Shown piece by piece: positions 13,327 to 52,526 of a stretch of DNA of 64,000 nucleotides (its first letter is position 1; every line of letters starts with the position of its first letter). The DNA lies in IMG/VR virus record IMGVR_UViG_3300032132_000439, positions 1-64,000 of that record. The stretch is one strand, 5' to 3'. Position numbers and translations under genes: made by a program. Under the pieces are notes generated by a model. That model ran no database searches and had not been told where the DNA came from. It saw only the letters and a list, made by a program, of their open reading frames with translations. Source of the stretch: a virus.

Positions 13327-13352
13327 GGCGGCGCATTACCAGATGCACCGCC
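13327..13352 (-). promoter_or_regulatory. RNA hairpin with CTGGTA loop before the chaperone gene
   Basis: Minus-strand transcript: a 10-bp stem (one G-U pair) with a six-base loop CTGGTA at 13337-13342. It ends six bases before the TTGGAG block of the chaperone gene. The loop differs by one base from the CTGGCA loop of six hairpins in the early region, and the stem sequence is unrelated to theirs. Confidence 0.65.
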
Positions 13353-13363
13353 GATTTTTCAGT

Positions 13364-13741
13364 TTATAGATTAACTTCACGGCAAGCGGATGAAACCACT
13401 TTCAAGCCTGAAATCTCACCGGAGCCCGTGTTTAGCGAGGCCCGACCGACAAGATCAGCTTCCGTGAATAGGTATTGGCGTTTCATGTCGATCAATGTGA
13501 TTGTCACATCAACACAAGAAAGATCACCAAGCTCAGCCAGTGATTGCCCCATGCGATCTGAAATCGTAATTTCAGCTTCCGCCGGAACAGCCTTTACCGT
13601 TACATAGTGAGTGCCGTTTGCGTTTGCGTCCGCTTCCCGTTCAACCGTGCTTGGCTGAACGGTAACGTCACCGCGCAAGTTGTATTTGTTGTTGCCAGCT
13701 TTAATGCTGACGCGCCCTGCGGCGTTGTTGCAACCTTGCAT
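13364..13741 (-). CDS. Tail tube protein (Mu gp40-like)
   Basis: About 125 residues (start MQGCNNAAGRVSIKAG). The GNKYNLRGDVTVQPST region and the GQSLAELGDLSCVDVTITLIDMKRQYLFTEADLVGRASLNT region match the Mu M / 'phage tail tube protein' family. It is directly downstream of the sheath gene, the standard order in contractile tails. Confidence 0.8.
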   Translation of the reverse strand: MQGCNNAAGRVSIKAGNNKYNLRGDVTVQPSTVEREADANANGTHYVTVKAVPAEAEITISDRMGQSLAELGDLSCVDVTITLIDMKRQYLFTEADLVGRASLNTGSGEISGLKVVSSACREVNL

Positions 13742-13755
13742 AATTTCTTACCTTA

Positions 13756-15240
13756 TTAGCTGTTGAAGTTGCCGAGCTGTTGATGAGTGATCATCTGAGC
13801 TGCGAAGACGCGGAATTGGTTCACCATGTCAGGCGGTAGGACCGCATCAATCCGGTCTGGATCGGTAACGCTACGCTCCATAGTGAGCAACGATTCAAAC
13901 AGTGCGTAATTCTCGCAAATGCTGAGATCGCAAAGTTTTGCATAAGCATGCAAGACCGTGGCGCGAACCTCATCAACTGTAGCAACGTTGTCCCGGTTTA
14001 GTGGGTCAGTTTCAGCAAGTGCAACCTGAGAATAAGCCCCGGTAACTTCCGCTTTCAAGAAACGTGCAACGCCCATGCTTTGGAACATTGTGTTCACATT
14101 CAACCAACTTGGATCGGCAAGCCCCCAATCATTCAATTGGTAAGTTGTGTTCATGCGATCAATGATCACGTTGCCAGCTTTATCAACCCGGTAACCGCAA
14201 AGGCCGTCAAAATACATTGATTGACGCTCGGTGAGATCCCAACGGTCAGCGATCAACTTTGGAGCTTTGATGCCCTTCAAAGTTGTTGCGTGCATCGGAA
14301 CCGAAAGGTTCGTGCCAATGCCGTTGAAGTGTGCTGCAGTAGCACCGGCAAGAGCGCCTACCCAATCAAAGATTGGTGAGCCTGAATTGTAGACCGGCAT
14401 AATTGATGCGTGCGGGTCGTTACGGGTATTACCGAAAGCGCTCAACACCGCATAGGTGCCGTTTTTCGCTGTGATAACGTGGCCGTAAAGCTCTTTAGCG
14501 TAAGACCAGCGACCGCTTGTGCCGTCCATAAAGTCTTGCGTTGCATCAAGGTTTGTCGCGTCATTGAACGGCATGCCGATCACGTCAAACTCTTCATCGC
14601 CCAAGTTCGCAAGCAAACCTGAAACGTCAGCCGTGCCAGCACCACCAGTAAAGGCAACCACTGTGAGCAATGTTGCGCTTGTCACGCCTTCATCACCAAC
14701 GCGATCAAGTTCCAACACCATGTCGTCACTGATAACACCCGTGAAATCAGATGTTAGCGTAACAACACCAGCCGCATTAGCTGCAGTTACCGGCGTGTAA
14801 ACATTGGCGTTGATTTCTGCAACGATGTTTGCGGCAATGTCTGTGTCTGTGTCAGTTGTTGTCACTGCAACTGAATAGCGTTCACCATTCAGATAGAAGT
14901 AAACCGTACCAGCCGCCGTCAATGGCGCGCCCGCAACTGTGATTGTAGCTGTTGAAGCTGCGCCCGCACCTTCGGCAACAGATGCAACCCAGATTTCTTG
15001 CAACGGCGCGTTGTCGCGTGCTGCTCGGTACATTGCTGCAAGAACGGAATTTGCACCGGCAAGCTGATCAATGTTGTCGTTTACGAGTGTCGCCGTGTCG
15101 TTCGCTAGTGTGCCGGTTGCACTTTTGTGACCGACGAGCAAACAACGATTAGATGATTGAAAAACCGCTTGTGAGGGGTTGATTTGGAACGATGCCAAAG
15201 GAACCCGCAAGTTTTGTGGAATGTCTGCAACTGCAACCAT
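13756..15240 (-). CDS. Contractile tail sheath protein (Mu gpL-like)
   Basis: A 494-residue sheath protein: N-terminal LRVPLASFQINPSQA, a Thr/Ala/Val-rich insertion domain (residues ~90-210) with immunoglobulin-like character, and the conserved C-terminal part including ICENYALFESLLTMERSVTDPDR near residue 445. Its presence makes this a myovirus-type tail. The Thr/Ala-rich insertion is longer than the Mu core and may be a surface decoration. Confidence 0.9.
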   Translation of the reverse strand: MVAVADIPQNLRVPLASFQINPSQAVFQSSNRCLLVGHKSATGTLANDTATLVNDNIDQLAGANSVLAAMYRAARDNAPLQEIWVASVAEGAGAASTATITVAGAPLTAAGTVYFYLNGERYSVAVTTTDTDTDIAANIVAEINANVYTPVTAANAAGVVTLTSDFTGVISDDMVLELDRVGDEGVTSATLLTVVAFTGGAGTADVSGLLANLGDEEFDVIGMPFNDATNLDATQDFMDGTSGRWSYAKELYGHVITAKNGTYAVLSAFGNTRNDPHASIMPVYNSGSPIFDWVGALAGATAAHFNGIGTNLSVPMHATTLKGIKAPKLIADRWDLTERQSMYFDGLCGYRVDKAGNVIIDRMNTTYQLNDWGLADPSWLNVNTMFQSMGVARFLKAEVTGAYSQVALAETDPLNRDNVATVDEVRATVLHAYAKLCDLSICENYALFESLLTMERSVTDPDRIDAVLPPDMVNQFRVFAAQMITHQQLGNFNS

Positions 15241-15452
15241 TATGATTTATCTCCAAAGGATTGTTTTACAACCGGAGCGGATTGCTTAGGCTGCTTAGTT
15301 TCTTTGACTTCAACAAGATCACCAGCATTCAAGCGGCGCTTGTAAAAAGCATTAAGCGGAAGTTTTTTGCCTTCAACCGGAACGGGATCAAAATTGCGAT
15401 CCGGTTGACGAACTAAACAGCCCTCAGCGGGCTTCAAGACCATTGTTTTCAT
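15240..15452 (-). CDS. DUF2635 family protein (Mu gp38-like)
   Basis: A 70-residue protein with the family pattern KPAEGCLVRQPDRNFDPVP...GKKLPLNAFYKRRLNAGDLVEV. This short protein is found immediately before the sheath gene in Mu-type phages; its function is unknown. Its stop codon touches the sheath start. Confidence 0.8.
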   Translation of the reverse strand: MKTMVLKPAEGCLVRQPDRNFDPVPVEGKKLPLNAFYKRRLNAGDLVEVKETKQPKQSAPVVKQSFGDKS

Positions 15453-15463
15453 GTTGTTTCCCG

Positions 15464-16288: not shown

Positions 16289-16290
16289 GA

Positions 16291-30855: not shown

Positions 30856-30856
30856 C

Positions 30857-31171: not shown

Positions 31172-31197
31172 TTCATTCTCCAAGTTGATTTTTTGCC

Positions 31198-39753: not shown

Positions 39754-40003
39754 TGTATTTCTCCATTTACGCAAATTTCGATATGCACAACCTCACCATA
39801 TTCACCAAAAACGCAAGAGGGGGTGTGTATTGAAAAGGGTTGCAATTCTCAGTTTCGGTGATTATTGCAGTATTAATGCACCACTCAAACCCATGTAAAC
39901 CAAGGCTTTTCAAAATAAGTTACCAAAAATGACATTTTTTTGTTGCATTCACTCAGGGATAAGTTAGATTACCAATATTGAGAAAACAACTTGGAGAGAT
40001 CAA
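39754..40003. promoter_or_regulatory. Divergent promoter region between primase and plus-strand genes
   Basis: Plus strand: TTGCAT (39943-39948), 16-base spacer, TAGATT (39965-39970), with the half-operator TTACCA at 39969-39974 over the -10. Another TTACCA lies at 39920-39925. For the primase, TTGGTGAATATGGTG (about 39796-39811, minus strand) contains two TGGTG units like the operator arms. The conserved CAACTTGGAGA block precedes the start at 40004. Confidence 0.5.
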
Positions 40004-40285: not shown

Positions 40286-40295
40286 TCAGAATTGA

Positions 40296-40323
40296 GGTTG
40301 CGCTGACTGGCATTGGCGCAACC
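40296..40323 (+). promoter_or_regulatory. RNA hairpin with CTGGCA loop
   Basis: GGTTGCGC and GCGCAACC form an 8-bp stem extended by T-G, G-T and A-T pairs to an 11-bp stem; the loop is CTGGCA (40307-40312). It sits in the gap before the gene at 40350, nine bases before the CAACTTGGAGA block. Same loop, different stem from the other copies. Confidence 0.75.
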
Positions 40324-40349
40324 CCAAACTTTCAACTTGGAGAATTATT

Positions 40350-41390: not shown

Positions 41391-41392
41391 TC

Positions 41393-42107: not shown

Positions 42108-42186
42108 AAACGCACATTGACAAACAACCCGACATTCATTCGAGTGCCGGGGATTCTTTAAACCAACTCAGTATCTTGGAATAATA

Positions 42187-42981
42187 ATGCTTTCAAAGCT
42201 TTTTAAAAAAATCAAAAGTATCATTTGGTTCATAATCAAATGGTTTTTTCTGATCCCGCTTGCACTTTTTATTGTTGTAGGCTTATCGCTTGGCCTTTAC
42301 GAAAACTTGACCGGCAACAAGATTGCTTGGCCCGGCAACTCAGAAGTTGCGGAAATTGCAGAAGCCAACCCTGTTGAAGAAACGGAAGTGCTTGATGCGG
42401 CTCCCGCTGTAATTGAAACCGAACCGGCAATAGAAAACTCAGAAGCGTATTTGGCCGGTCTTTACGATCAAGTTTTTCACAAGTGCGATCACGAGGCTGC
42501 TAACATTCCAGCGAACTCAGCTTTCTTGGCTAGCTATTTTCATTGGAGCGTTGCCTATGATGAAAGCTATTTCACCGGCATGCGTGAGGGTCATGAGTTG
42601 ATCCATGAACAAGGCGAGGAGTTCGCATGCGCCTACCTGATCGGCGTTCTGTCAAATCACGCCACAATCACGAAGCGACCAACCCCAACTGCAGATGATC
42701 GAGAATTTGCCTTCGGAACCGGCGTTTACTCAGCTTTCGTGGCGGATTGTGGCTACGTTCTGGATGGCTCAGAATTGGGGAAAACACACCATCAGGCCGT
42801 TGCAACTGAGCGAATGAAATCGCTTACGGAATACCATGATGGACTGCACCTTGTTTACGATCTTGTCGAAAAGTTCGGGCTCAAAAGGGCTTGCGATGAA
42901 ATCGCTCAGGGAGTTATCAAACCATCTGACTTTGGAATAAAGCCCGATATTCCAGAAAATCGATCACCGTTGTTGAACTAA
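42187..42981 (+). CDS. Membrane-anchored protein with extracytoplasmic domain, unknown
   Basis: 264 residues. Basic start (MLSKLFKKIKS) then a long hydrophobic segment (IIWFIIKWFFLIPLALFIVVGLSLGL), then a Glu/Ala/Pro linker and a ~180-residue domain with four conserved-looking Cys (HKCDHEAAN, EEFACAYLIGV, VADCGYVLD, KRACDEIAQ), probably in the periplasm. No family recognised. Early plus-strand expression makes a superinfection-exclusion or lysogenic-conversion role plausible, unproven. Confidence 0.6.
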   Translation: MLSKLFKKIKSIIWFIIKWFFLIPLALFIVVGLSLGLYENLTGNKIAWPGNSEVAEIAEANPVEETEVLDAAPAVIETEPAIENSEAYLAGLYDQVFHKCDHEAANIPANSAFLASYFHWSVAYDESYFTGMREGHELIHEQGEEFACAYLIGVLSNHATITKRPTPTADDREFAFGTGVYSAFVADCGYVLDGSELGKTHHQAVATERMKSLTEYHDGLHLVYDLVEKFGLKRACDEIAQGVIKPSDFGIKPDIPENRSPLLN

Positions 42982-42988
42982 GCAAACC

Positions 42989-43013
42989 AAAGGGCGCATC
43001 ATGCGCCCTTTTT
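42989..43013. terminator. Bidirectional terminator between the plus-strand unit and brnA
   Basis: AAAGGGCGCAT and ATGCGCCCTTTTT form a near-perfect hairpin with a T-tract on the plus strand; the minus strand also has an A-to-T reversal. The stop codon of brnA lies inside it. Efficient on the plus strand; probably weak on the minus strand. Confidence 0.75.
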
Positions 43014-43382
43014 CTTCACCAATGCCAGCAAGTCCGCATTCAATTGAGACTGCCAACCCCTGCCCGTTAATCGGTAGTGTTTAAGCACCTCACTATCCAA
43101 CCTTATTGAGATAGATTCTTTGCCCTTACCTGCAGGTAACTTAGGGCGACCACGCTTAGCCTTGGCAAACATCGCGTCTGACCATTCCGGGTTGTCAGCA
43201 TCCGCCGCAATACCGGCCTGAATTTCTTGTTCCGTGATCAGTTCTCTTGGAGGAGTATTCGCCGCTCGTAGCCCACTATATCTTACTTTTGCTTCGGCTC
43301 TAACTGCTTTAGCATCCTTTATAATAAACGAGCCGCTTCCTTGGCGGGTGTCATCATCCTTGCTCTTCGATGATTTTCTCAT
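42999..43382 (-). CDS. brnA: BrnA family antitoxin
   Basis: A 127-residue protein: a disordered, charged N-terminal region, an INTPPRELITEQEIQAGIAADADNPEWSDAMF-like central helix segment, a basic linker and a KESISIRLDSEVLKHYR region at the end that forms a ribbon-helix-helix DNA-binding domain. Such proteins neutralise BrnT and repress the operon. The start overlaps the brnT end by about 28 bases. The gene pair runs against the plus-strand genes on both sides. Confidence 0.85.
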   Translation of the reverse strand: MRKSSKSKDDDTRQGSGSFIIKDAKAVRAEAKVRYSGLRAANTPPRELITEQEIQAGIAADADNPEWSDAMFAKAKRGRPKLPAGKGKESISIRLDSEVLKHYRLTGRGWQSQLNADLLALVKKKGA

Positions 43383-43641
43383 ATTTTCGCACCTCCCTTT
43401 TGTTAGACTTTCGCAAGCTAATCACACGTATTGCATCTTCACGTATGGTGTAACAAATAGCATGTAACCGCTCGCCAATTTTCACATGGCATAACTGGCG
43501 CTCTTCACCGTCATGGTTTTGGGTAAGGCAAATCGCGCTATCCCAATCAATAAGCTTTGCGCTTTCAAACGCGATTCCGTGCTTATCAAGGTTCTTTCGC
43601 GCCTTGTTATCGTCCCATTCATATTCAAATTCATCACTCAT
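43354..43641 (-). CDS. brnT: BrnT family toxin
   Basis: A 95-residue protein from the ATG at 43641 (EFEYEWDDNKARKNLDKHGIAFESA at the N-terminus; ARVGERLHAICYTIREDAIRVISLRKSNKREVRKYE later). These match BrnT, a ribonuclease toxin of the RelE superfamily. It precedes brnA and shares an overlapping end, the standard order. A TTGACA-like box and the palindrome at 43649-43662 lie just upstream. Confidence 0.85.
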   Translation of the reverse strand: MSDEFEYEWDDNKARKNLDKHGIAFESAKLIDWDSAICLTQNHDGEERQLCHVKIGERLHAICYTIREDAIRVISLRKSNKREVRKYEKIIEEQG

Positions 43642-43648
43642 GTCAATA

Positions 43649-43662
43649 AATGTATATACATT
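43649..43662. promoter_or_regulatory. brnTA operator-promoter palindrome
   Basis: AATGTATATACATT is a perfect 14-bp palindrome immediately before brnT, the expected position of the BrnA/BrnT autoregulatory site. It shares TGTATA with the inverted repeat at 43708-43726. Confidence 0.6.
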
Positions 43663-43698
43663 AAAACAATAATGCAACCTCAAAATGGGTACGTTTTA

Positions 43699-43728
43699 TT
43701 GATAAAATGTACAAGATGCTTGTATATT
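43699..43728 (+). promoter_or_regulatory. Plus-strand promoter with inverted repeat TGTACAAG-N3-CTTGTATA
   Basis: TTGATA (43699-43704), 18-base spacer, TATATT (43723-43728). An inverted repeat TGTACAAG atg CTTGTATA (43708-43726) covers the spacer and -10. It drives the small genes from 43790. Because it resembles the brnTA palindrome, BrnA may bind both sites, which would make the toxin-antitoxin protein also a regulator of the next unit. Confidence 0.45.
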
Positions 43729-43789
43729 GAGGTTGACCAAAGAATCTTCATCGCTCAGAGTGAGTACATGGACAACTTGGAGAGCCACG

Positions 43790-44053
43790 ATGAAGAATTT
43801 TGTAGAACAGATTAAAGACCTAATGGAAGCACGCGGTTGGGCGGAAAATCGGAGCCGTTTCGTTTCCGTTTTAGTACCAAAATTGGAAGCCTACCCACCA
43901 TATTTCTTTGCACTTGAAGAAACGCTTGAAGAGCAAAGCGGCACGCTTGCACTACGCGATTGCTTGCATGAAGTAATGCCATACGGCGTGAGCCTGAAAG
44001 ACGATAACATGATTGATGCAATTGATGCTGTAATGGGTGAGTTGGTGTGGTAA
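43790..44053 (+). CDS. Phage protein, unknown, 87 residues
   Basis: ATG 43790 with CAACTTGGAGAGCCACG upstream, the conserved ribosome-binding block. Acidic and helical (MKNFVEQIKDLMEARGWAENRSRF...; CLHEVMPYGVSLKDDNMIDAIDAVMGELVW). Stop overlaps the next start. Unknown function. Confidence 0.55.
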   Translation: MKNFVEQIKDLMEARGWAENRSRFVSVLVPKLEAYPPYFFALEETLEEQSGTLALRDCLHEVMPYGVSLKDDNMIDAIDAVMGELVW

Positions 44054-44235
44054 TGGCTAAATCAACTTTAAAGGCCGCTGACAGGCATTTCGTTACGATC
44101 CGGGCCCATGCTGCAGTAGGTAATGAGGCCGCCGCCACGCGCTATTACTGCGAGCATCGGATTTCATATGCAAAATTCATGAAAGCACTAAATGAGGGCC
44201 GTGACCAACGGAGGAGAAAACAAGATGACAAGTGA
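44053..44235 (+). CDS. Small basic protein, unknown, 60 residues
   Basis: MAKSTLKAADRHFVTIRAHAAVGNEAAATRYYCEHRIS, basic at both ends, aromatic in the middle. ATG at 44053 overlaps the previous stop (TAATG). Function unknown; size and charge suggest nucleic-acid binding. Confidence 0.5.
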   Translation: MAKSTLKAADRHFVTIRAHAAVGNEAAATRYYCEHRISYAKFMKALNEGRDQRRRKQDDK

Positions 44236-44425
44236 AGATTTTGTGAGCTGGCTAGCAGAAATGAAGTCCGCGGGACTTGGTCGATCTGACGCAAAGTGCG
44301 CTGAGCTTTTGGGTATCTCGAAAAACAGCGTTGTGGCCATTAAGAAAAATGGGGGCGACATACGGACCGCACTTGCGTGTAGAGCTTTGTTGCATCGCAT
44401 GGAACCGTACGGCAAATCAGTTTAG
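44225..44425 (+). CDS. Small HTH protein, Cro-like
   Basis: 66 residues from the ATG at 44225. SDAKCAELLGISKNSVVAIKKNGGD near residue 21 is a helix-turn-helix with the expected Ala, Gly and Ser-x-x-Val-x-x-x-Lys pattern. It may be a small regulator of Cro type. No self-operator beyond those listed was identified. Confidence 0.55.
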   Translation: MTSEDFVSWLAEMKSAGLGRSDAKCAELLGISKNSVVAIKKNGGDIRTALACRALLHRMEPYGKSV

Positions 44426-44496
44426 CGCATTCAAGTGGTTGGAGCTTTCTTTTATACAACCGCGTAAAGAGCCAAAAGCAACACTATGCATGCAGG

Positions 44497-44528
44497 AAAG
44501 GGCTAGGGGTTCGCGCCCCTAGCCCTTT
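44497..44528. terminator. Bidirectional terminator between early operons
   Basis: AAAGGGCTAGGGG and CCCCTAGCCCTTT form a 13-bp perfect stem around TTCGCG, followed by TTTTT on the plus strand and by A-to-T reversal on the minus strand. It separates the plus-strand unit from the minus-strand early operon, whose last gene stops inside it. Confidence 0.85.
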
Positions 44529-44755
44529 TTAATTCCCATCTCCAACGCCGCCTCTTCACTGGCCTCAGAAATAGCCCTCATAGTCTCTTCCGTGTAAACA
44601 CCAACTGCGATAGCCATTGCCTCAAAGAACGCCTCACGGCTTACGCCATCGAATTTAGCGCCCTTTGATTGCAAGAACGGCCCAACCTTTGCAGCGGCGC
44701 TTTTCAACGCCGCCACTTCAAAGTCTTCAAGGTTACTCAGATGGTTGTGTATCAT
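44519..44755 (-). CDS. Phage early protein, unknown, 78 residues
   Basis: Helical and acidic (MIHNHLSNLEDFEVAALKSAAAKVGPFLQSKG; EAFFEAMAIAVGVYTEETMRAISEASEEAALEMG). Overlaps the helicase gene at its start by about 23 bases. No family recognised. Confidence 0.55.
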   Translation of the reverse strand: MIHNHLSNLEDFEVAALKSAAAKVGPFLQSKGAKFDGVSREAFFEAMAIAVGVYTEETMRAISEASEEAALEMGIKKG

Positions 44756-46613
44756 CTAACGCACTCCATCTTGCAAGGCCATCAACCTCTCCCGGTTGAC
44801 TTGTCGCGATCTTGCGGCGCTTTAACCGACCAAGGCAATCATCAACAACCGTGTAAAGCTGGCCGGTTACGTCCATGATATCCTCAATACGCACCCCAAC
44901 CGCTTGTTGTTTCAACACCTCATAAACGATGCGATCCGCGCCATTGGAGAAAGTGCCGGGCGCATCATAAAGGAAAGACTTAACGCGCGTGTAGCTGCCA
45001 TCCTCTTGCACAACAATCCGGTCAGGACACCGCAAAGACTTAGCCCGAACAATCGCCTCACTGGTTGTGCTTGGGTAAGGCTCCTGCCCGCCGTGCGCAG
45101 TCCACCAGCGTTCAGCCATCTTGCGCGCGCCACCAGCATGCTCAAAACAAACCCATTCAGGAATAGGCGCGGATTTCTTGACGCTTGGAATGTAATACCC
45201 AACCTTCATGCTCGTTGCGGCACCCTGCTTTTCATGGCGCTCAAATGTCCATGTTCGGCAAAAAGCTCCAGGGAGATTGGCCGCACGTTCATCCTCAAAG
45301 TGGCCTTGGTTTTTAAGCAAAGCGCGCGTGTCCGCCGTCCGATCGATCTTATCAGTTTCAACCGGCTCAGGGAAAACATACCCGCACTCATAACATTCAC
45401 TGCATTGGATCGGCAAAATTGTACGGCAAGACTCTTGCGGGCACACTTTAACCGGCGCGTCCCCCACTTTATCGCTCTCAGAGCGCCGTTTCTTGGTTGG
45501 TGGTGGTTGCACATCATCAATAGGTCCGTGGCGCTTCACGTTGCCCGCAAAGTCCAACACAAGGCAATTTGTTTTGCCGGTGTCCGGTGAGATCCGCAAA
45601 CCACGGCCAACCATTTGTTGATATAGCCCGGGGCTGGCTGTCGGGCGGCATAGAGCGACCAAATCCACGTTTGGTGCATCAAAGCCCGTTGTGAATACAT
45701 TTACGTTCACAAGGCACCTCAGCTCACCGTTTTTGAACCGGCGAACCATATCCTCACGCTCACCTTTGCTTGTGGAGCCGGTTACGCATTCAGCGCCGAA
45801 GCCGTGGCCATCAAGCAAGTGCGTCAGTTGCTCCGCGTGATCAATGCTTGATGCAAAAACCAAGATGGACTTGCGATCATGGCCAACCTGAACGATTTCA
45901 TTCACGACCGCCGCGTTGGTATCAAGCGTGTTCACTAGCTGATCAACTTGGGAGCTGTTGAAATCACCGCCTTGATAGTTGATTGCCCGCATGTCGAATG
46001 TTGTGCGCATTGCCTTTGGAACAACCGGGCTAAGATAGCCGCGTGAAATCAGTTCACCAACGTTCACTTGATAGGCAATATCATCAAACATTGTCTCGTC
46101 AGTGTCGCCATATAGCAAACCACAATCCAAGCGATATGGTGTGGCGGTTAGGCCTAATGAACGATAGTTTTCATGATGACGTTTTGCATCTTCAAACATG
46201 CGCCCGTACATCGTGTTAGATTTCGGGTTAATCGTATGAGCTTCATCAACGATGAATAGATGCGCTCCCCCGATTTCATCAAGCTTGTTGTAAATGGTTT
46301 GAACGCCACCAAAGAGAATTTGAGCGTTACGGTCACGACGGCCAATGCTTGCGCTGTAGATGCCAACCGGCGCTTGTGGCCATAGGGAAAGCAACCGCTC
46401 CAAGTTCTGCTCAAGCAGCTCTTTTTGGTGCGTCACGCATATAATCCGCATGCCGGGATACATCTCAAGCGTCCGTTTGCAGATTTCAGCGTTGATCACC
46501 GATTTACCGGCGCCGGTGGCCAAATCGAGAATTGGGTTGCCGCCTACTTCACGCCAATATGTAAAAGTCGCGTCAACTGCAGCTTGTTGATAGTCGCGCA
46601 AAACATAATTCAT
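44733..46613 (-). CDS. DEAD/DEAH-box helicase (SF2)
   Basis: A 626-residue SF2 helicase. DLATGAGKSV near residue 31 (Walker A), FIVDEAHTI near 119 (DEAH), SLGLTATPYRL near 155 (motif III), and QMVGRGLRISPDTGK near 335 (motif VI). C-terminal ~200 residues contain a Cys-rich CPQESCRTILPIQCSECYECG segment that looks like a zinc ribbon and a helical tail. It fits the phage helicase family that unwinds DNA during replication/recombination. Confidence 0.88.
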   Translation of the reverse strand: MNYVLRDYQQAAVDATFTYWREVGGNPILDLATGAGKSVINAEICKRTLEMYPGMRIICVTHQKELLEQNLERLLSLWPQAPVGIYSASIGRRDRNAQILFGGVQTIYNKLDEIGGAHLFIVDEAHTINPKSNTMYGRMFEDAKRHHENYRSLGLTATPYRLDCGLLYGDTDETMFDDIAYQVNVGELISRGYLSPVVPKAMRTTFDMRAINYQGGDFNSSQVDQLVNTLDTNAAVVNEIVQVGHDRKSILVFASSIDHAEQLTHLLDGHGFGAECVTGSTSKGEREDMVRRFKNGELRCLVNVNVFTTGFDAPNVDLVALCRPTASPGLYQQMVGRGLRISPDTGKTNCLVLDFAGNVKRHGPIDDVQPPPTKKRRSESDKVGDAPVKVCPQESCRTILPIQCSECYECGYVFPEPVETDKIDRTADTRALLKNQGHFEDERAANLPGAFCRTWTFERHEKQGAATSMKVGYYIPSVKKSAPIPEWVCFEHAGGARKMAERWWTAHGGQEPYPSTTSEAIVRAKSLRCPDRIVVQEDGSYTRVKSFLYDAPGTFSNGADRIVYEVLKQQAVGVRIEDIMDVTGQLYTVVDDCLGRLKRRKIATSQPGEVDGLARWSALDDTQPSE

Positions 46614-46906
46614 GAGCGCAAACCTTGGACGCGGAAGACGGAAGCGTTGTGCGAGAAACCTTCAAAAACGCCGTTGTCTGCCATGCGCATAATCCAGCTT
46701 TTTAGCGCGTTGACCGGCAAGCGCAATTCAGCGGCCAGATCAAGAAAGCGCATTGAACAAATACCGCATTCAGCAATTCGTTTTTCAATGATTGATTTTG
46801 GTGTTGCTTTAATGGTTTTCGGCTTACGTGTGCGCGTGTATTCAACACCGCAATCGCTAGGCCAGTCAAAACGCGGCGGAACCGCAATAGCTAGATAATC
46901 AGTCAT
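46610..46906 (-). CDS. Small HTH-like phage protein
   Basis: 98 residues, MTDYLAIAVPPRFDWPSDCG at the start, basic middle (TRTRKPKTIKATPKSIIEKR), helix-turn-helix-like end (LDLAAELRLPVNALKSWIMRMADNGVFEGF). Overlaps the helicase start. Likely DNA-binding, function unknown. Preceded by CAACTTGGAGGTCAC. Confidence 0.55.
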   Translation of the reverse strand: MTDYLAIAVPPRFDWPSDCGVEYTRTRKPKTIKATPKSIIEKRIAECGICSMRFLDLAAELRLPVNALKSWIMRMADNGVFEGFSHNASVFRVQGLRS

Positions 46907-46926
46907 GTGACCTCCAAGTTGAAAAG

Positions 46927-46956
46927 AACCGGGGACGGTGCCAGCCGCACCCGGTT
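46927..46956 (-). promoter_or_regulatory. RNA hairpin with CTGGCA loop
   Basis: Minus strand: AACCGGG and CCCGGTT form the outer stem, one mismatch and a G-U follow, then CGG/CCG closes the loop CTGGCA (46939-46944). It ends eight bases before the CAACTTGGAGG block of the 46610-46906 gene. Confidence 0.75.
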
Positions 46957-46967
46957 TGTTGTTTGTT

Positions 46968-47102
46968 TTAGATACCGGCTAGCTTTCGCATTGCCTTGAG
47001 CTTGCTGATTTCAAGAATGTTCCAAAAGAACCGGAAAGCTAAGGCAAGCATACCGACCACAATTAGCCATAAGGTGATGTCAAAAAGCATTTCAATGATC
47101 AT
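46968..47102 (-). CDS. Small membrane protein, 44 residues
   Basis: ATG at 47102 with GGGAGC seven bases upstream. The frame MIIEMLFDITLWLIVVGMLA continues through a single membrane helix and ends with a basic KLKAMRKLAGI tail. It overlaps the stop of the exonuclease gene, so it is probably coupled. Unknown function. Confidence 0.6.
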   Translation of the reverse strand: MIIEMLFDITLWLIVVGMLALAFRFFWNILEISKLKAMRKLAGI

Positions 47103-47640
47103 AGGTAGCTCCCGCTTTATCCAATCGCGCAATCACGCTTTCGGCTTGGTTTAGTGCATCGCTGAGAGCATCGTGCTTTGTGCCCGTGTACTCAATTTCA
47201 GCGTCAGTTCCCCAAAACGCCTCAAGCGTCCGTACGCTTCGGGTTTGGTGGTATCTCCAAGGCACCGATAAATCGCAAAGCTCATAGGCTTTAGCCAAAT
47301 GCGAACAATCAAAATCCGGGTCTTTCGCCCACACATGTTGCGGTCGGTGGTTTTGGAAAAGTTCACTAAGACGATAGAGCGCCGAACCTATCGAGTAGCC
47401 ACCTGTCGCAATTTGCGTGGCAAACAGCTCAACGTCAGTTTCCGCCCACCACTGCAGTGTTGAAAGGTCAATTTTCATGCCCATCGCAACGCACGATTGC
47501 GGGTCGATTTTCAAGTTAAGCTTTGAAATCATCTTGCCGTCAGGCAAAGTCGGATCAAAGACAACCGCGCCAATTTGCGTGATCACTGAGCCGGGCTTTA
47601 AGCCAAGGTTTTCAATGTCAATCATAATGTGTTTTGACAC
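47092..47640 (-). CDS. 3'-5' exonuclease (DnaQ/Rv2179c-like)
   Basis: 182 residues from a GTG at 47640, preceded by TTGGAGTAA. DEDD motifs: IDIENLG near residue 7 (D-x-E), AKDPDFDCSHLA near 107, and GTKHDALSDALNQA near 155. The middle LQWWAETD stretch is typical of the Rv2179c-like exonuclease group. Role: proofreading or end processing of phage DNA or RNA. Confidence 0.8.
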   Translation of the reverse strand: MSKHIMIDIENLGLKPGSVITQIGAVVFDPTLPDGKMISKLNLKIDPQSCVAMGMKIDLSTLQWWAETDVELFATQIATGGYSIGSALYRLSELFQNHRPQHVWAKDPDFDCSHLAKAYELCDLSVPWRYHQTRSVRTLEAFWGTDAEIEYTGTKHDALSDALNQAESVIARLDKAGATYDH

Positions 47641-47645
47641 GGCGG

Positions 47646-47858
47646 TTACTCCAAAAGCTCATTGATGCGCTTTGCGATGCGCTCGGCTTTTTCTTTGTCG
47701 CTAAATGCAAGCTCATTATCGACCTCAAGATGATCGATTTTTTGCTTGTTTGTGGCGATTTTGGCCGCTTTCTTTTCAGCCACTTTCACCAAGTCAGTTG
47801 CGACTTTTTGCAAAGTCCCGATTGCCTTATTCAAGGTCAGATTTGCCGCTAGTTCCAT
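47646..47858 (-). CDS. Small coiled-coil protein, 70 residues
   Basis: Almost entirely helical, with alternating Ala/Leu/Lys/Glu positions (TLQKVATDLVKVAEKKAAKIATNKQKIDHLEVDNELAF). Preceded by CAACTTGGAGAG. Could be an accessory subunit or regulator. No family recognised. Confidence 0.5.
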   Translation of the reverse strand: MELAANLTLNKAIGTLQKVATDLVKVAEKKAAKIATNKQKIDHLEVDNELAFSDKEKAERIAKRINELLE

Positions 47859-47859
47859 T

Positions 47860-48156
47860 CTATCTCTCCAAGTTGATTTTGCGTCCAGCCGGTGGCCCGG
47901 CTAATGCATTGTTGATATTCGGAGCGGTGCAATGATCATGGATCAAGTTGCCCACTACCCGGCGCAGTTCGTTTTCTTCAAAGATTTCCAGCCGGGTTGA
48001 AAATCTTATTGAGGCCATGCGGTTGATCGCATCGAAAACCTCAAGATCGACCAGCGAAAACTGGTTGGTTAGTTTGAAAATTGATGTTCCATTCGCAAAG
48101 CGGCGGAAGATTTCAACCTTCTTTTTTTCTGAAATGGTGGCGCTATATTCATGCAT
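47860..48156 (-). CDS. Small HTH-like phage protein, 98 residues
   Basis: ATG at 48156 (MHEYSATISEKKKVEIFRRFANG). The region ISEKKKVEIFRRFANGTSIFKLTNQFSLVDLEVFDAINRM resembles a homeodomain/HTH-like small DNA-binding fold. The C-terminus reads through CAACTTGGAGAGA, the conserved ribosome-binding block of the next gene, so the block is coding here. It overlaps the nuclease gene's end by eight bases. Confidence 0.5.
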   Translation of the reverse strand: MHEYSATISEKKKVEIFRRFANGTSIFKLTNQFSLVDLEVFDAINRMASIRFSTRLEIFEENELRRVVGNLIHDHCTAPNINNALAGPPAGRKINLER

Positions 48157-49171
48157 TATCGCCACCCCGATTTTCCGGGTTGTCCGTAATGTCGCGGCCA
48201 GCCTTTTCATCTTCCCCAACCGCTTCCGGTGGTCCATCAATGAAGGTTTCGCCGTTATCCAAGGCGTAAGTAATTGTGCCCGCATCTGGGTCCGCGTCGA
48301 TCTGCTCACCCGGCACAAAGCAAGGGTTGAAAAGGTGGCCTTCACAACCGGCCAATTGCTCGTCGCGGTTTAGTGGCTTGCTGTGCTTTTCGCACTGCCA
48401 TGAGCCGTAATCTTTATGAGCAAGCGGAGTTACGTGGATGCATGTGCGGCAAGAGCGTGTTTGAACAAACTCCCCGCCTTTGCAGATGTTTTTGTAATCG
48501 CAGAAGCGGCACGACCAAAAGTCAGGATCATCGGAGACACGGCTTGGCGCGTCGTCAGTGTAAACAATCGATTCAACGCGGTTGAAAAGATGCTCGCAAA
48601 AACCCTGATCATAATCGATAACAATGCTCATTACCGCGTCAGTGTTCTTGTTAACCGCAAGGTAAAGGCATTTCTTATAGCCGGTTAGGTGCATGTAAGA
48701 TTGACACTGAATGAAGTGTTCCGGCTTATGCTCTTTCAGCCCCTTTTTAATCAAAGCGTCCCAACTCTTTTGGTTGTGTGATTTGCACTCCACAACAACC
48801 CATTGGTCGTCAATGCCGGGTACATTGTGTGCAACGCCATCAAGCAACCCCCGGGCATGCCCACCAACGCCCCTAACGCGCATCTGACGGCCTGTGTCTG
48901 GATCGTGGGTGATAACTGTTGCCCCGGCCCCGGCAAGCCCCTCAAGCAAGCGCTCTTCATGGATTTCACCAGTTTCAAACAAGCGGCACATTTTGCCATC
49001 AAATTGTTTGGGAGGCGTGGCCCAACGAAACGCATAAAATGGCGCTCGGTTGCAATCCGATCCAAGCATTGAAAGGCTAATACCGATTGAACCATATGGC
49101 TCACCGCGCTTGGCTTGCGAGTAATCGTAAATTTTGTTTGCAACGGGGTCCGTATCTGGTATTTCAACCAT
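48149..49171 (-). CDS. PD-(D/E)XK exonuclease (Cas4/RecB-like)
   Basis: 340 residues. The nuclease motif is GLLDGVAHNV near residue 107 (D) with WVVVECKSHNQ near 123 (E-x-K), followed by a glutamine-containing IQCQSYMHLTG helix near 155. A Cys-cluster with WSCRFCDYKNICKGG near 218 and further Cys residues could hold an Fe-S cluster as in Cas4-type nucleases. It would process ends for Sak4-driven recombination. C-terminal 60 residues are acidic and disordered. Confidence 0.8.
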   Translation of the reverse strand: MVEIPDTDPVANKIYDYSQAKRGEPYGSIGISLSMLGSDCNRAPFYAFRWATPPKQFDGKMCRLFETGEIHEERLLEGLAGAGATVITHDPDTGRQMRVRGVGGHARGLLDGVAHNVPGIDDQWVVVECKSHNQKSWDALIKKGLKEHKPEHFIQCQSYMHLTGYKKCLYLAVNKNTDAVMSIVIDYDQGFCEHLFNRVESIVYTDDAPSRVSDDPDFWSCRFCDYKNICKGGEFVQTRSCRTCIHVTPLAHKDYGSWQCEKHSKPLNRDEQLAGCEGHLFNPCFVPGEQIDADPDAGTITYALDNGETFIDGPPEAVGEDEKAGRDITDNPENRGGDNA

Positions 49172-49223
49172 AATAAAAAAATCCCATGATGTTTGCTCTC
49201 CAAGTTGACGTTGTGGTGATGGT

Positions 49224-49260
49224 TGGCCGGGCGAGGGATGCCAGTCCCTATGACCCCGGC
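49224..49260 (-). promoter_or_regulatory. RNA hairpin with CTGGCA loop
   Basis: Minus strand: GGCCGGG and CCCGGCC form the base, an asymmetric internal loop follows, then AGGGA / TCCCT closes the loop CTGGCA (49238-49243). The plus-strand direction ends in TTTTT after the stem, so the same element could also be a terminator on that strand. It lies upstream of CAACTTGGAGAG and the exonuclease gene. Confidence 0.7.
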
Positions 49261-49264
49261 CTTT

Positions 49265-49453
49265 TTATTGCCCGGATTTTTGCTTGGTTATGAAAAACGC
49301 CGCTTTGTCTTTGAGGGCTTGTTTGTTGTTCACCAATTTTCGATAGTCAGGCAGGGAAACAACGTCCCTGCCCTCAATTTCCACCAGCTCCGCATCATTG
49401 GTGATCACATCTTGGAACACCTTCGGTAGTGGGGCTTGATGTGTGACTACCAA
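49265..49453 (-). CDS. Small phage protein, unknown, 62 residues
   Basis: MVVTHQAPLPKVFQDVITNDAELVE... then Lys-rich end (KALKDKAAFFITKQKSG-like). Overlaps the end of the SSB-like gene by about seven bases, so the two are coupled. No family recognised. Confidence 0.5.
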   Translation of the reverse strand: MVVTHQAPLPKVFQDVITNDAELVEIEGRDVVSLPDYRKLVNNKQALKDKAAFFITKQKSGQ

Positions 49454-49989
49454 GGTTGTGCGCCATTATTGGCGGTTTGCGCTGGCGTGTCGGTTGCGCC
49501 GTTCATATGCGGTGGCTTTTCACCAGAGGCCGCATTTTGTGCCGGAGCCGTTGCCGCTGACGGGTGAATGAAATGCTTGATTTCATTGCTCGCCTCATAG
49601 CCGTTTTTAGGCGGGTTAACTGCAAGCTCAACAATGAAAGGCAAGCCAATCAATTGATCAGTTTCACCCGGTGCATTCTGACCAAAGCCCGTTGCAATAC
49701 TGGCTTCACCGTAAAGGCGGCGACCTTTGCGCGCATAACCTTCGCTCGGGTGAACCACTGGGTAACGGAACAGGATTTGCCGCCCTGCTTGGTCACCGTC
49801 AGTGATTTCAATCATCATGTGTACGGTGTACTTGTCAGTATGCTCACCGTTATCAATCGCCTCTTTCTCTTTAGGCGCGCGGCGGGAAGCTATGAATTTG
49901 CCGGGGTATTTGCCAGCCGGGATTGGTGTAAAGCGATCCGCGTCAATTGCCTCTTGTGCATCAAATCCGCCATTAGGTAGTGCTACCAT
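49447..49989 (-). CDS. DUF669-like single-strand-binding protein
   Basis: 180 residues. IPAGKYPGKFIASRRAPKEKEA near residue 22 and MMIEITDGDQAGRQILFRYPVVHP near 58 fit the DUF669 group of phage SSB-like OB-fold proteins, followed by a Pro/Ala/Asn/Gly-rich disordered tail. Such proteins cover ssDNA in phage replication and recombination. It lies next to the Sak4-like ATPase, a usual pairing. Confidence 0.75.
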   Translation of the reverse strand: MVALPNGGFDAQEAIDADRFTPIPAGKYPGKFIASRRAPKEKEAIDNGEHTDKYTVHMMIEITDGDQAGRQILFRYPVVHPSEGYARKGRRLYGEASIATGFGQNAPGETDQLIGLPFIVELAVNPPKNGYEASNEIKHFIHPSAATAPAQNAASGEKPPHMNGATDTPAQTANNGAQPW

Positions 49990-50010
49990 TTTAAATCTCC
50001 AAGTTGTTGC

Positions 50011-50030
50011 GTAAGGGTGCCAGCCCTTAC
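50011..50030 (-). promoter_or_regulatory. RNA hairpin with CTGGCA loop
   Basis: Minus strand: GTAAGGG and CCCTTAC pair perfectly around CTGGCA (50018-50023). It lies between the ATPase stop and the ribosome-binding block CAACTTGGAGA of the DUF669-like gene. Confidence 0.8.
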
Positions 50031-50040
50031 ATTTCGCCGG

Positions 50041-50973
50041 TTAAGCGGCTGGCGTTTCAGTTGTTGTTGATTGGGTGTCAGGCGCGCCGTTGTCGGCAAG
50101 CTGCTCCGCTTCAACGGCGGCGCTAGCCTCTTGCTCTTCCGTAAGCACTGGCTCAGGTATTGCGGTTGGTGGCGTATCCATGCCCGGGAAGTAATCGGCC
50201 AAAACCTTATATCCCTGAGCTTCGTGATAAACGACCTCAGTAGGTGTTTTGTAACGCGACTTAGCGACAAACCCCGGGCGCTCTTCAAGATAGATCACGC
50301 GGGTTCCGTGGCCTTCCGCGTGGCTATGTTTCTTGTTGAAGCCACCCTCTTGCGTCTTGATGACTTTTTTCTGATTAATGAAGCCAACCATATCAACATC
50401 ATCAACAAGAAGATCGACCACCTTTTTGTGAAGGCGCGGAACATAGCGGTCATAACCTTCCGTTCCCGGCTCGTCGAAACGCTTAATGTCAAAGTGCGCT
50501 AAGATCACAATGGCCATGTTGCGAACGGTGCGCAGCTTGTTGAGCATGCGTAAAACGTCAGCGAACTTGTCTTTATAGGCGATATAGCCTTTGCCATATC
50601 CCGGCTCTTCAATGTCAGGCCAACCGTTTTCAGCGCAAACTTTGCTGATAATCATCGGTTCAAGCTTGTCGATTGTGTCGATCACAAGGGTTTTGCGATC
50701 ATGGGGCTCAGTGCCCAACATGCGCAAATAATCGACAAACTGATCATAACCAGTGCCTTTAATGTCCTGCCCGTCACCTGTTTTGGAATCTTGCACAAGT
50801 GGAAAACTGAAAACCTCAGTATCCGCTGGCAACCCCTCCTCAGTGAAGATGAAAGCCGGGTTGGGAAATTCGCTTGCAAGGCTGGTTTTCCCAAGCCCTG
50901 CAGTGCTGTAGAACAAACAACGCGGTGGCTTCACGTTCTTTGTTGTCTTCAACATTTCCATTAATTTTGCCAT
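50041..50973 (-). CDS. Sak4-like RecA/AAA ATPase (recombination)
   Basis: 310 residues. Walker A FYSTAGLGKTSLAS near residue 23, a hydrophobic Walker B-like LVIDTIDKLEPM near 95, and later IVILAHFDIKRF. N-terminal 230 residues form a RecA-type core; the last 60 are Glu/Thr/Ala-rich. This matches the Sak4 single-strand-annealing ATPase group found with DUF669 SSBs and exonucleases. First gene of the minus-strand early operon. ATG at 50973 is preceded by a TTGGAGAG sequence. Confidence 0.8.
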   Translation of the reverse strand: MAKLMEMLKTTKNVKPPRCLFYSTAGLGKTSLASEFPNPAFIFTEEGLPADTEVFSFPLVQDSKTGDGQDIKGTGYDQFVDYLRMLGTEPHDRKTLVIDTIDKLEPMIISKVCAENGWPDIEEPGYGKGYIAYKDKFADVLRMLNKLRTVRNMAIVILAHFDIKRFDEPGTEGYDRYVPRLHKKVVDLLVDDVDMVGFINQKKVIKTQEGGFNKKHSHAEGHGTRVIYLEERPGFVAKSRYKTPTEVVYHEAQGYKVLADYFPGMDTPPTAIPEPVLTEEQEASAAVEAEQLADNGAPDTQSTTTETPAA

Positions 50974-51179
50974 TTTCTAACTCTCCAAAAATGTAAACAA
51001 ATCGTTACGTTTTTGCGTAATTGGTATTTTTTTGCTTGCAATAAACGCCTGAGCGTATAGAAGATTAGGCTGCAATAAAAAAACGACGCTTACCAAATCG
51101 GTAACATGCTGCAAGAATTATCAATATTGGTAATTTTTGCAAGCGACAAAATCATAAATAGTGGAGTAAAAATACTGTA
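50974..51179. promoter_or_regulatory. Repressor-early promoter operator region
   Basis: Minus strand: -35 TTGCAG (51109-51114), 16-base spacer, -10 TAAGCG (51087-51092). The operator TTACCA-AAT-CGGTAA (51090-51104, one mismatch) lies between them. Half-operators occur at 51127-51133 (TTGGTAA) and 51018-51027 (TAATTGGTAT). This is a divergent switch between the early operon and the repressor. The repressor's own promoter was not identified clearly. Confidence 0.6.
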
Positions 51180-51830
51180 ATGTTAGAACAAGCCAGTACA
51201 ATCAAGAGGTTACGGAAATTACGCGGCTTAACTCAGGGTGATTTAGCCCAGCTAATCGCAGAGAATACCGACCTCGAAACAACAACCGCCACGATTTCAC
51301 GCATTGAGCGCGGTGATCGCCAGTTGACCGCAAAATGGATCAAGGCATTTTCGCAAGCGCTTGAGGTTGATGAATACACAATCATAACGGGCAAGGCCGA
51401 CATACCGGAAAGCACCGGCGAAAGCTCAGGCATTCCCGTTGCCGGAAGATTGAGCGCTGAAACGTGGTCGAGTAGCAAAGCTAGCAAAAGCGCATTCAAA
51501 ACGGTTCCGGTTATCCCAACCGACGAATATAGAGACTATTCACATAGCGCTTTTGAGCTGGAAGAAAACAGCGGCGTTGAGGAGCTAACGAACGGGTGTG
51601 CTATTACAGTTCCCTATTACGATGCGCGGGTGAACCCAACACCCGGCGATCTGGTTGTTGTTCGCTTCACTCAAGGCGCGCAACCTGAGCGTATTTACCG
51701 CACTTGTGCCGGGGAATTAATTCGTGATCGCCTCACAAATACCGTTCAGCTTAGCGTGGCCGGGGTTTTGTACGAAGTGGAAAAAGCCGACCTATTGGGT
51801 AAAATTACTGCAATTTATAGACAAGTTTAA
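51180..51830 (+). CDS. CI-like repressor: XRE HTH plus S24-type C-terminal domain
   Basis: 216 residues. Residues ~5-65 form an XRE HTH (IKRLRKLRGLTQGDLAQLIAENTD... TISRIERGDRQLT). Residues ~85-210 have the LexA/CI fold: IPVAGRLSAE cleavage-region-like stretch, AFELEENSGVEEL-NG-AITVPYYDA where the catalytic Ser loop would be, and PGDLVVVRF. The Ser-Met and Lys of self-cleaving members are not clearly conserved (SG and an Arg-containing QPERIYR instead), so self-cleavage is doubtful. It faces the early operon across the operators, so it is the best candidate for the operator-binding repressor. Confidence 0.8.
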   Translation: MLEQASTIKRLRKLRGLTQGDLAQLIAENTDLETTTATISRIERGDRQLTAKWIKAFSQALEVDEYTIITGKADIPESTGESSGIPVAGRLSAETWSSSKASKSAFKTVPVIPTDEYRDYSHSAFELEENSGVEELTNGCAITVPYYDARVNPTPGDLVVVRFTQGAQPERIYRTCAGELIRDRLTNTVQLSVAGVLYEVEKADLLGKITAIYRQV

Positions 51831-51838
51831 TAAAAAGG

Positions 51839-51866
51839 TTGACATAATTCACCGTATTGGTAAATT
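51839..51866 (+). promoter_or_regulatory. Early plus-strand promoter with operator
   Basis: -35 TTGACA (51839-51844), exactly 16-base spacer, -10 TAAATT (51861-51866). The operator half GTATTGGTAAAT overlaps the -10 and a related TTCACCG arm lies to its left. This is the cleanest promoter of the recurring type and drives the HD-domain gene and everything to the integrase. Confidence 0.7.
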
Positions 51867-51892
51867 TTCCAAATCAACTTGGAGAGGCCCAT

Positions 51893-52510
51893 ATGGATTT
51901 ACACCACGAAACGGCTGGCACCGTTTTCAACAAAAAGATGATTTCAGGTCGGCTTGTCGATATCCTGAACCCAACGACGGATGATATAATTTTCAGTGAT
52001 ATCATTCACGCGCTTTGCGGGATAACTCGATACGACAACCACACAACGCGCCCAGTTATGCTTTCTGAGCATTCCCTATATGTCGGGCATTTGATGCGAA
52101 GCATCGCCCCGGTGGGTGAGCGGGAAGAATATCAGCGCCACGGGCTTGCGCATGATTTCCACGAATACGCGCTAGGCGATCAAACAACGCCGGTGAACAA
52201 GGCTGTAACGCACCTTGCTGGCATTGATGGATTTGGGATGCTCAAGGCGCGTTGGGATTCTGTGATCTTTGAAGCCCTTGGAATGACCCCACCAACTGAC
52301 GCAATAATTGAAGCGGTAAAATGGTGCGACCGGCAAGTTTTCATCGCTGAATATCAAGCGTATATTTACGATCCTAAGCCGACCGATATTGGCCTTGAAG
52401 AATGGCCAGACGACATTGTGGATTTGGACAAAATGCGCGATTCATGGCTTCACATTTCCCCACATCGAGAATTTGCGCGCATAGCTGTTAAGTGCTTCGC
52501 AAACATCTAA
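51893..52510 (+). CDS. HD-domain phosphohydrolase (YfbR-like nucleotidase)
   Basis: 205 residues from the ATG at 51893. RPVMLSEHSLYVG with its His near residue 63 and GLAHDFHEYALGD near residue 92 are the HD-type metal-binding motifs; KWCDRQVFIAEYQAY follows. The family includes 5'-deoxynucleotidases and phage proteins of nucleotide metabolism. The mRNA start contains the CTGGCA-loop hairpin at codons 6-11. Early expression fits a role in nucleotide supply. Confidence 0.75.
   Translation: MDLHHETAGTVFNKKMISGRLVDILNPTTDDIIFSDIIHALCGITRYDNHTTRPVMLSEHSLYVGHLMRSIAPVGEREEYQRHGLAHDFHEYALGDQTTPVNKAVTHLAGIDGFGMLKARWDSVIFEALGMTPPTDAIIEAVKWCDRQVFIAEYQAYIYDPKPTDIGLEEWPDDIVDLDKMRDSWLHISPHREFARIAVKCFANI
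51909..51926 (+). promoter_or_regulatory. RNA hairpin with CTGGCA loop inside the HD gene start
   Basis: AAACGG and CCGTTT form a 6-bp stem, loop CTGGCA (51915-51920). It is in codons 6-11 of the HD gene, 16 bases after the ATG. The stem therefore also encodes protein (TAGT-V). It could modulate initiation by masking or by protein binding. Confidence 0.65.
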
Positions 52511-52526
52511 CACGGCTGGCACCGTG
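52511..52526 (+). promoter_or_regulatory. RNA hairpin with CTGGCA loop
   Basis: CACGG and CCGTG form a 5-bp stem, loop CTGGCA (52516-52521). It directly follows the HD stop and precedes the CAACTTGGAGA block of the gene at 52557. Confidence 0.7.

Follow-up and report, generated by a model that had tools for sequence, protein, structure and literature searches.

Leader hairpins with a fixed loop and variable stems in a temperate phage, and a second loop version in the 16-3 clade of rhizobial phages

Seven leader hairpins with one loop

The 64,000-nucleotide stretch of viral DNA analysed here (positions 1 to 64,000 of IMG/VR record IMGVR_UViG_3300032132_000439, hereafter the window, part of a 64,374-base virus record) encodes seven RNA hairpins that carry one six-base loop on differing stems, six of them in gene leaders and one in the first codons of a gene. 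The stems covary, and the same arrangement recurs with another loop in relatives of Rhizobium phage 16-3. We read the hairpins as cis-acting leader RNAs of a phage regulon, in which a trans-acting factor would recognise the loop and set translation of the cistrons together, and give this reading about an even chance (roughly 0.5). The structure, covariation, placement, repetition and second family are direct observations, from which we infer the binder, and translation rather than mRNA stability as the output.

All seven hairpins lie where the original prediction placed them, on both strands and each in sense orientation, with the loop CTGGCA in six and CTGGTA in one, on stems of 5-11 bp or, in one case, of 4 and 7 bp (stem length is the number of contiguous pairs adjoining the loop, G-U allowed). 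On the plus strand an 11-bp hairpin (40296..40323, loop at 40307) occupies the leader of the orphan gene 40350-40688, a 5-bp hairpin (52511..52526, loop at 52516) leads 52557-53090, and one of 6-7 bp (51909..51926, loop at 51915) lies in the first codons of an HD-type phosphatase gene (phrog_318, ATG 51893), 3' of the start-site block described below; the position inside the start of the HD gene is that originally claimed. On the minus strand a 5-bp inner stem with an interrupted outer helix (49224..49260, loop at 49244) leads a Cas4-type nuclease gene (phrog_1990), a 7-8-bp stem (50011..50030, loop at 50023) leads the single-strand DNA-binding-like gene 49447-49989 (phrog_2300/phrog_6015), and a stem of 4 bp, mismatches and then 7 bp (46927..46956, loop at 46944) leads the orphan gene 46610-46906, behind which stands a helicase. 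The CTGGTA hairpin, also on the minus strand, has a 10-bp stem (13327..13352, loop at 13342) and leads the tail gene 13006-13308, whose protein has a weak likeness to the phrog_166 tail protein (E 0.0013). The proposed placement among early genes is therefore partly right: five hairpins lie in or beside the recombination-gene region (Sak4-like annealase, single-strand DNA-binding protein, Cas4-type nuclease, helicase), and one copy leads a tail gene. Most are located between neighbouring same-strand genes. The loop centre of the six upstream hairpins is 31-54 nt from the ATG, the 54 nt being measured to ATG 49187, with the nuclease ATG 49171 another 16 nt on.

Each stem pairs with itself through compensating changes, as had been proposed: 92.9% of 42 cells in the seven stems are paired versus 57% after shuffling (0/500), 15 cells are doubly changed versus 4.7 in shuffles (0/500), and sliding the partner by 1-3 columns reduces pairing to 31-57%. 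The accompanying statement that the stems differ completely needs correcting, as four of the seven share two loop-closing pairs (G-C/G-C). Among the 43 CTGGCA words in the window, five have a stem of at least 5 bp, one (46944) has 4 bp and 37 have 0-3, while hexamers permuted from the same letters reach at least 5 pairs at 38 of 4798 places (binomial P 2.3e-5 for CTGGCA). Within gene leaders, defined as the 90 nt before and 40 nt after each start, CTGGCA forms the hairpin loop in 5 of 68 (8840 nt), whereas the top count for any hexaloop in 500 dinucleotide shuffles of the leaders was 3, reached twice; gated by position in this way, the comparison with shuffled sequence suggested in the original prediction came out in its favour. 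The strength of the signal is in position, loop identity and covariation.

The hairpins do not resemble common leader structures. Typical intrinsic terminators have a U-tract right behind the stem; in the sense direction no T run longer than four follows any of the seven stems, which are therefore not of this kind. CsrA/RsmE sites present GGA in a hairpin loop; GGA is absent from the CTGGCA and CTGGTA loops, as from the ACCA loops of the second family, which accordingly are not CsrA-type sites. Rfam 15 gave no match at the gathering score in the window or in the loci L019, L020, L022 and L117, and at a permissive E-value none in L020 or L190 and just two unrelated sub-threshold matches in window positions 39900-54500. 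The stretch GCTGGCAC of four hairpins is complementary to the conserved GTGCCAGC of 16S rRNA; since the 30S subunit holds this rRNA segment in a structured form, we regard the match as coincidental.

An extended start-site block beside the hairpins

Beside the hairpins lies CAACUUGGAGA, a phage-specific extended ribosome-binding block. Its form CAACTTGGAGA occurs in nine exact copies in the window, and 12 lie within one mismatch versus 1.1 expected. All nine exact copies precede an ATG, at a gap of 6 nt in six cases and of 7, 9 and 0 nt in one each. In the likely host family, presumably the Rhodobacteraceae, CAACTTGGAGA stands 4-9 nt ahead of an ATG in 8 of 100 genomes, with one or two matches each. 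Good pairing with the 16S tail is to be expected of the GGAG alone, so that rRNA pairing leaves most of the block's conservation unexplained.

The claim that hairpins stand just before the block holds in part. Four of the nine exact copies have a CTGGCA hairpin within 80 nt upstream: 40333..40343 (plus, 6 nt ahead of ATG 40350), 49197..49207 (minus, 9 nt ahead of ATG 49187 of a short frame and also ahead of nuclease ATG 49171), 49996..50006 (minus) and 52540..52550 (plus). Two variant blocks (46921 and 13321) also have a hairpin upstream; hairpin 46944 precedes CAACTTGGAGG (46911..46921, minus), and hairpin 13342 precedes merely CTCTTGGAGA, the degenerate block ACTCTTGGAGA of its leader spanning 13314..13324 (minus). 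The other five exact blocks are without an upstream CTGGCA hairpin. These are 39987..39997 and 43773..43783 (plus), 31177..31187 (minus), 47865..47875 (minus), whose leader has instead a stem (47876-47900) with a GCCA tetraloop, and 51875..51885 (plus) ahead of the HD gene, where the hairpin sits after the start codon.

The CTGGCA loop in other genomes

The expectation that related prophages would carry the same loop was not borne out. Covariance-model and pattern searches of IMG/VR, of GTDB (one genome per species) and of 394 genomes of the likely host family gave no second genome with a start-linked set of CTGGCA hairpins, in collections from which close records to the window's own genome may be missing. 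The exact CTGGCA-block-ATG pattern matched 17 stretches in IMG/VR, with stems of 0-2 bp, and 35 in GTDB, with stems of 0-3 bp; the GGCTGGCACC-AACTTGGAG pattern matched two, in both of which the stem is at most 4 bp and no start codon follows the block in the sequence shown. The covariance model, in whose alignment merely three base pairs survived, gave a weak match in 25 of the 394 genomes (best 29.4 bits), and the 20 loci inspected were without a CTGGCA hairpin of at least 5 bp. Scans of IMG/VR with single proteins (Sak4, primase) yielded no relatives, 20 prophage loci of the likely host family (Sak4 33-43% identity) had no such leader hairpins, and no repeated loop was found in CRP-822 or in the first 50,000 bases each of CRP-902 and Pyei1.

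Stems of 5-10 bp under a CTGGCA or CTGGTA loop occur in isolation in six loci (L011, L020, L023, L054, L055 and L097). There is a single one per locus, the CTTGGAG block is absent from the 60-70 nt shown, and we take these hairpins as chance. A separate observation concerns an IMG/VR contig (L131) with GC-GTTA-GC tetraloops on three different 8-bp stems (9659, 11985 and 14740), which do not adjoin a Shine-Dalgarno sequence.

A second loop version in the 16-3 clade

Relatives of the window's recombination genes include the group of Rhizobium phage 16-3 (Sak4 35-40% identity), in which a detector for one loop on differing stems returned another repeated loop, CCACCAA. The leaders of this clade run, in many cases, in the order variable stem, 5-8-nt loop with ACCA, CACCAC, GAGGAGA and ATG, the loop taking the form CNACCAA. 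An IMG/VR scan with the pattern CCACCAA-N5-20-CACCAC-N0-9-GAGGAGA, which leaves the arms unconstrained and so does not select for stems, matched at least 120 stretches, where roughly a dozen were expected by chance (scaled from another pattern scan). Among the matches listed, 131 represent 79 distinct arm pairs, in which 70.9% of 474 cells are paired versus 41.6% when shuffled (0/500) and 144 cells are doubly changed versus 67 (0/500), and sliding by 1-3 columns lowers pairing to 26-36%.

Single-linkage gene groups among 108 distinct leaders show like loops on many unlike stems, the beta-clamp gene contributing 12 rows (11 places); these leaders were pre-selected for ACCA and at least 5 pairs, which makes a claim of loop retention from them partly circular. 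An unselected test used 82 leaders chosen by gene homology alone, with random 78-nt stretches of the same loci as control; hairpins of at least 5 bp are present in 78 of the leaders. In 27 of these 78 the strongest hairpin has ACCA in its loop, whereas among the random stretches that form a hairpin this is so in 63 of 3433 (1.8%), which makes the enrichment about 19-fold. For leaders of EVB67_056-type methylases the figure is 4 of 6. The ACCA element is thus strongly enriched yet comes and goes among leaders. Sak4 is without the hairpin element in both phage groups. A scan of 61 genomes from the family to which a Mesorhizobium belongs did not return the exact rhizobial pattern, so that within the limits of an exact pattern it looks phage-specific.

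Candidate readers of the loop

The window phage and four 16-3-clade phages have no small protein in common; what they do share is VRR-NUC, primase, helicase, Cas4 nuclease, Sak4, HD and integrase. For the window orphans 46610, 40350 and 41701 the phage collection yielded nothing at E 0.01, and 198 genomes yielded nothing for 46610. The single-sequence AlphaFold model of 46610 (predicted local distance difference test score, pLDDT, 48) was not used further. That of 40350 (pLDDT 71) gave Foldseek matches at E 0.3 or above only, with some coat proteins of RNA phages among these insignificant ones, and its best Z in VIA, 7.2 to Mediator Med17, is within the common background.

The comparison of 110 loci, of which 10 have at least one hairpin (L104 with a single, likely chance, match) and 100 have none, yields a candidate. 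All nine hairpin-bearing loci of the 16-3 type encode the early protein p073 of 16-3 (105 aa), and the 100 loci without hairpins all lack it. By comparison p087 and the helix-turn-helix protein p072 are each missing from one hairpin locus, and p074 reaches a few hairpin-free loci. Locus L139 has a Sak4 closer to that of 16-3 (68%) than is the case in three hairpin-bearing loci, and is without p073, the sigma-like pair and any loop common to its leaders, which argues that the co-occurrence of p073 is not due to ancestry alone. From this distribution p073 may be a lead to the binder, one confounded by ancestry and by fragmentary loci.

A pair of tandem sigma factors resembling the extracytoplasmic function (ECF) class, encoded at L020:25974-26986 and found in the 16-3 clade (TIGR02937 above cut-off), also co-occurs with the ACCA hairpins.

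Interpretation

What is conserved in these leaders is the loop and the linear ribosome-binding element, the remainder being conserved just in pairing, which suggests that the stem presents the loop to a reader. In such an arrangement the stem need merely form and would hold a fixed 5'-CUGGCA-3' near the upstream edge of the ribosome landing site, in six cases at the 31-54 nt ahead of the ATG given above and beside CAACUUGGAGA. The loop, perhaps together with the block, would then be read in trans, most likely by a small RNA-binding protein that the phage encodes, and translation of the cistrons would be set jointly. Translation is the favoured output because, judged from these distances and from general knowledge, the hairpin would lie close to the initiating ribosome on its upstream side, and a phage-encoded reader is favoured because the motifs are rare in host genomes and the loop changes between phage lineages. 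The 16-3 clade follows the same design with the loop C-N-ACCA-A and, as its linear element, CACCAC ahead of GAGGAGA; such a change is what one would predict if the loop of every lineage fits that lineage's own binder. The original prediction of a structured RNA recognised at its loop thus stands as regards the conserved loop and the compensating stems before gene starts, and is strengthened by the second, rhizobial family, while recognition of the loop by a phage RNA-binding protein is what we consider the best account.

Several observations weigh against this regulon. The binder search yielded no binder. p073 is without a homologue in the window phage and without a family match; the sigma-like p086 is distributed as p073 is, so that co-occurrence may merely mark the clade; and of the 100 loci without hairpins 37 fall short of 8 kb, and two, L109 and L110, are structural halves of hairpin-bearing phages. 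The CUGGCA form is seen in a single genome, and within it the ungated whole-window count of five hexaloop hairpins of one word, G-U allowed, is unexceptional (any-word maxima 3-6 in 30 shuffles). A generic detector with tighter settings (6 bp, no more than one G-U) left the window unflagged. In the rhizobial family 49 of 130 scored CCACCAA-pattern matches, among the matches listed, have a best run of 0-4 pairs, and orthologous leaders keep the loop unevenly, with ACCA in the strongest hairpin of 8 of 18 p072, 4 of 15 p086 and 0 of 22 Sak4 leaders. The leaders of L139, the near relative of 16-3 by Sak4, combine a hairpin with a CACCAC-type flank and a Shine-Dalgarno sequence and have differing loops; hairpin-leader architecture can therefore exist without loop recognition.

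This last observation keeps alive the view that the hairpin is a structural insulator, which just stops upstream mRNA from pairing with the ribosome-binding site, its loop being alike by descent or for stability. The hairpins of L139 are GC-rich, the hairpin leaders of the 16-3 clade belong to genes with a long gap to the previous gene, and many orthologous leaders bear a different loop on their strongest hairpin, all of which such a role would accommodate. If the loop were free, however, it would not be expected to be identical in six of seven hairpins on stems of 4-11 bp, nor would ACCA loops be expected at about 19 times the random rate in leaders picked regardless of loop, and we regard an insulator as unlikely, though it deserves to be taken seriously. 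A role in processing or stability, in which an RNase would cleave close to the hairpin, and the latter would guard the new 5' end of the cistron, with the loop as the site of the nuclease or a protector, would fit the location of most hairpins between neighbouring same-strand genes, and known phage processing sites, the RNase III sites of T7, occupy such intergenic positions. By eye, however, the seven stems share no sequence on their 5' side, one hairpin (51909) lies inside a coding start, and the conserved linear element is downstream, at the Shine-Dalgarno sequence; we give this explanation a rather small share of the probability.

The remaining alternatives are weaker. The loop could kiss an antisense RNA, another leader or ribosomal RNA, and the GCCA tetraloop in the block leader without a CTGGCA hairpin (47858) is indeed the complement of UGGC in the common loop. 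Yet in the window all hairpins of at least 5 bp with a CTGGCA or TGCCAG loop belong to the seven or to their opposite strands, which leaves no separate complementary loop, and the rhizobial loop is not complementary to the CTGGCA loop, so pairing between RNAs seems improbable. The hairpins are also inverted repeats near genes, and might be palindromes bound at the DNA level, as proposed for the extended start-associated sequence (ESAS) of cluster K mycobacteriophages; against this, the arms vary and pair only with themselves, with wobble pairs, and the core is asymmetric and sense-oriented in seven of seven. Variable arms and an asymmetric core make a double-stranded DNA operator very unlikely. 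Chance or word bias, for which the ungated count within the shuffle maxima might speak, is scarcely credible against the leader-gated shuffles, the covariation in both families, the permuted-hexamer test and the homology-picked ACCA leaders.

Extending the regulon reading beyond one genome is a more doubtful step. Temperate phages of alphaproteobacteria might possess a private RNA code, with a fixed loop per lineage, free stems, an extended start block and an early RNA-binding reader of their own (candidate p073), loop and reader changing together; this is possible, but on balance we would not expect it.

The window phage and other features

The window phage is a temperate, contractile-tailed phage, as indicated by a tail sheath gene (13756-15240), a CI-like repressor gene (51180-51830) and an integrase gene (53388-54410). 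Host flank is apparent at the right side of the window, where the protein of 59311-61215 has up to 64-65% identity to proteins of a Seohaeicola genome and of that genome's family. Palindromes of the type TACCAATATTGGTA, noted by eye at about 39950-39990, 51140-51160 and 51850-51875 by the promoters of 40004, 51180 and 51891, are probable operators of the CI-like repressor.

Ahead of the Cas4-type nuclease gene the block precedes the ATG of a short frame with a seven-T run (49171-49187); this frame, from ATG 49187, overlaps the nuclease ATG 49171 in a different frame, and slippage, a mini-leader or a misplaced start are possible. At 42999-43683 a BrnA antitoxin (Pfam, 60 bits) is preceded by a frame that is BrnT-like by eye and has no NCBIfam match, the two being probably a toxin-antitoxin pair carried by the phage. 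In the rhizobial phages an early protein (L022:18085-19227 and L019:18255-19391) has repeated KVGDRV-like stretches and, at its C-terminus, a stretch resembling that of ribosomal protein L7/L12 (PF00542 at 27.0 bits, passing the cut-off in L022 only).

Comparison with known systems

Repeats associated with gene starts in phages have been on record since 2011, with no mechanism given (PMC3203893). In cluster K mycobacteriophages the start-associated sequence (SAS) is a 13-bp phage-specific extended ribosome-binding repeat of 11-19 copies, about half of them with an ESAS just upstream, an inverted-repeat element with conserved arms and a variable spacer (PMC3203893). Both elements go with non-structural genes, mostly at long gaps, and their function was left unassigned; departures from ESAS do not generally support RNA pairing, and the authors leaned to DNA binding (PMC3203893). 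Similar SAS/ESAS-type pairs are described for cluster EF Microbacterium phages and 18-bp inverted repeats 14-22 bp ahead of starts for cluster EG (PMC7302621), and cluster O has a 17-bp dyad at sites not closely linked to starts (PMC4351075). Our term search of the main text of open-access papers on rhizobial phages, subscription papers lying outside its scope, found no mention of a hairpin, stem-loop or inverted repeat.

The window block resembles SAS as a near-identical repeat over the Shine-Dalgarno sequence of a subset of genes, present in many copies and rare in the host, but its sequence, CAACTTGGAGA, differs from the cluster K consensus, GGGATAGGAGCCC. Likewise the window hairpin lies, as ESAS does, upstream of a subset of blocks (four of nine exact ones and the CAACTTGGAGG and CTCTTGGAGA sites), whereas from the same account ESAS has conserved arms and a variable spacer, the window element a fixed loop and variable arms that covary as RNA. 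The repeats of cluster EG are likewise dyads before start codons and those of cluster O likewise repeated dyads, but in both the arms are conserved, where the window conserves loops, and in cluster O a close link to starts is lacking. Single hairpins bound by a protein are known as translational operators in the coat-protein operators of RNA phages and the Com site of mom in phage Mu. By analogy they would act alike, as a loop-presenting hairpin near the ribosome-binding site read by a phage protein; these are single sites, whereas the window repeats one loop over several genes on unrelated stems, with a putative reader.

What distinguishes the upstream element described here is that it is an RNA structure, with clean covariation, an invariant loop and two unrelated loop versions. 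Because one version is abundant in relatives of phage 16-3 of Sinorhizobium meliloti, it is testable on a tractable system, and a protein that reads the loop, if it exists, would provide a new orthogonal RNA-protein pair. The nearest analogue is the SAS/ESAS pair of cluster K, from whose ESAS we class the window element apart.

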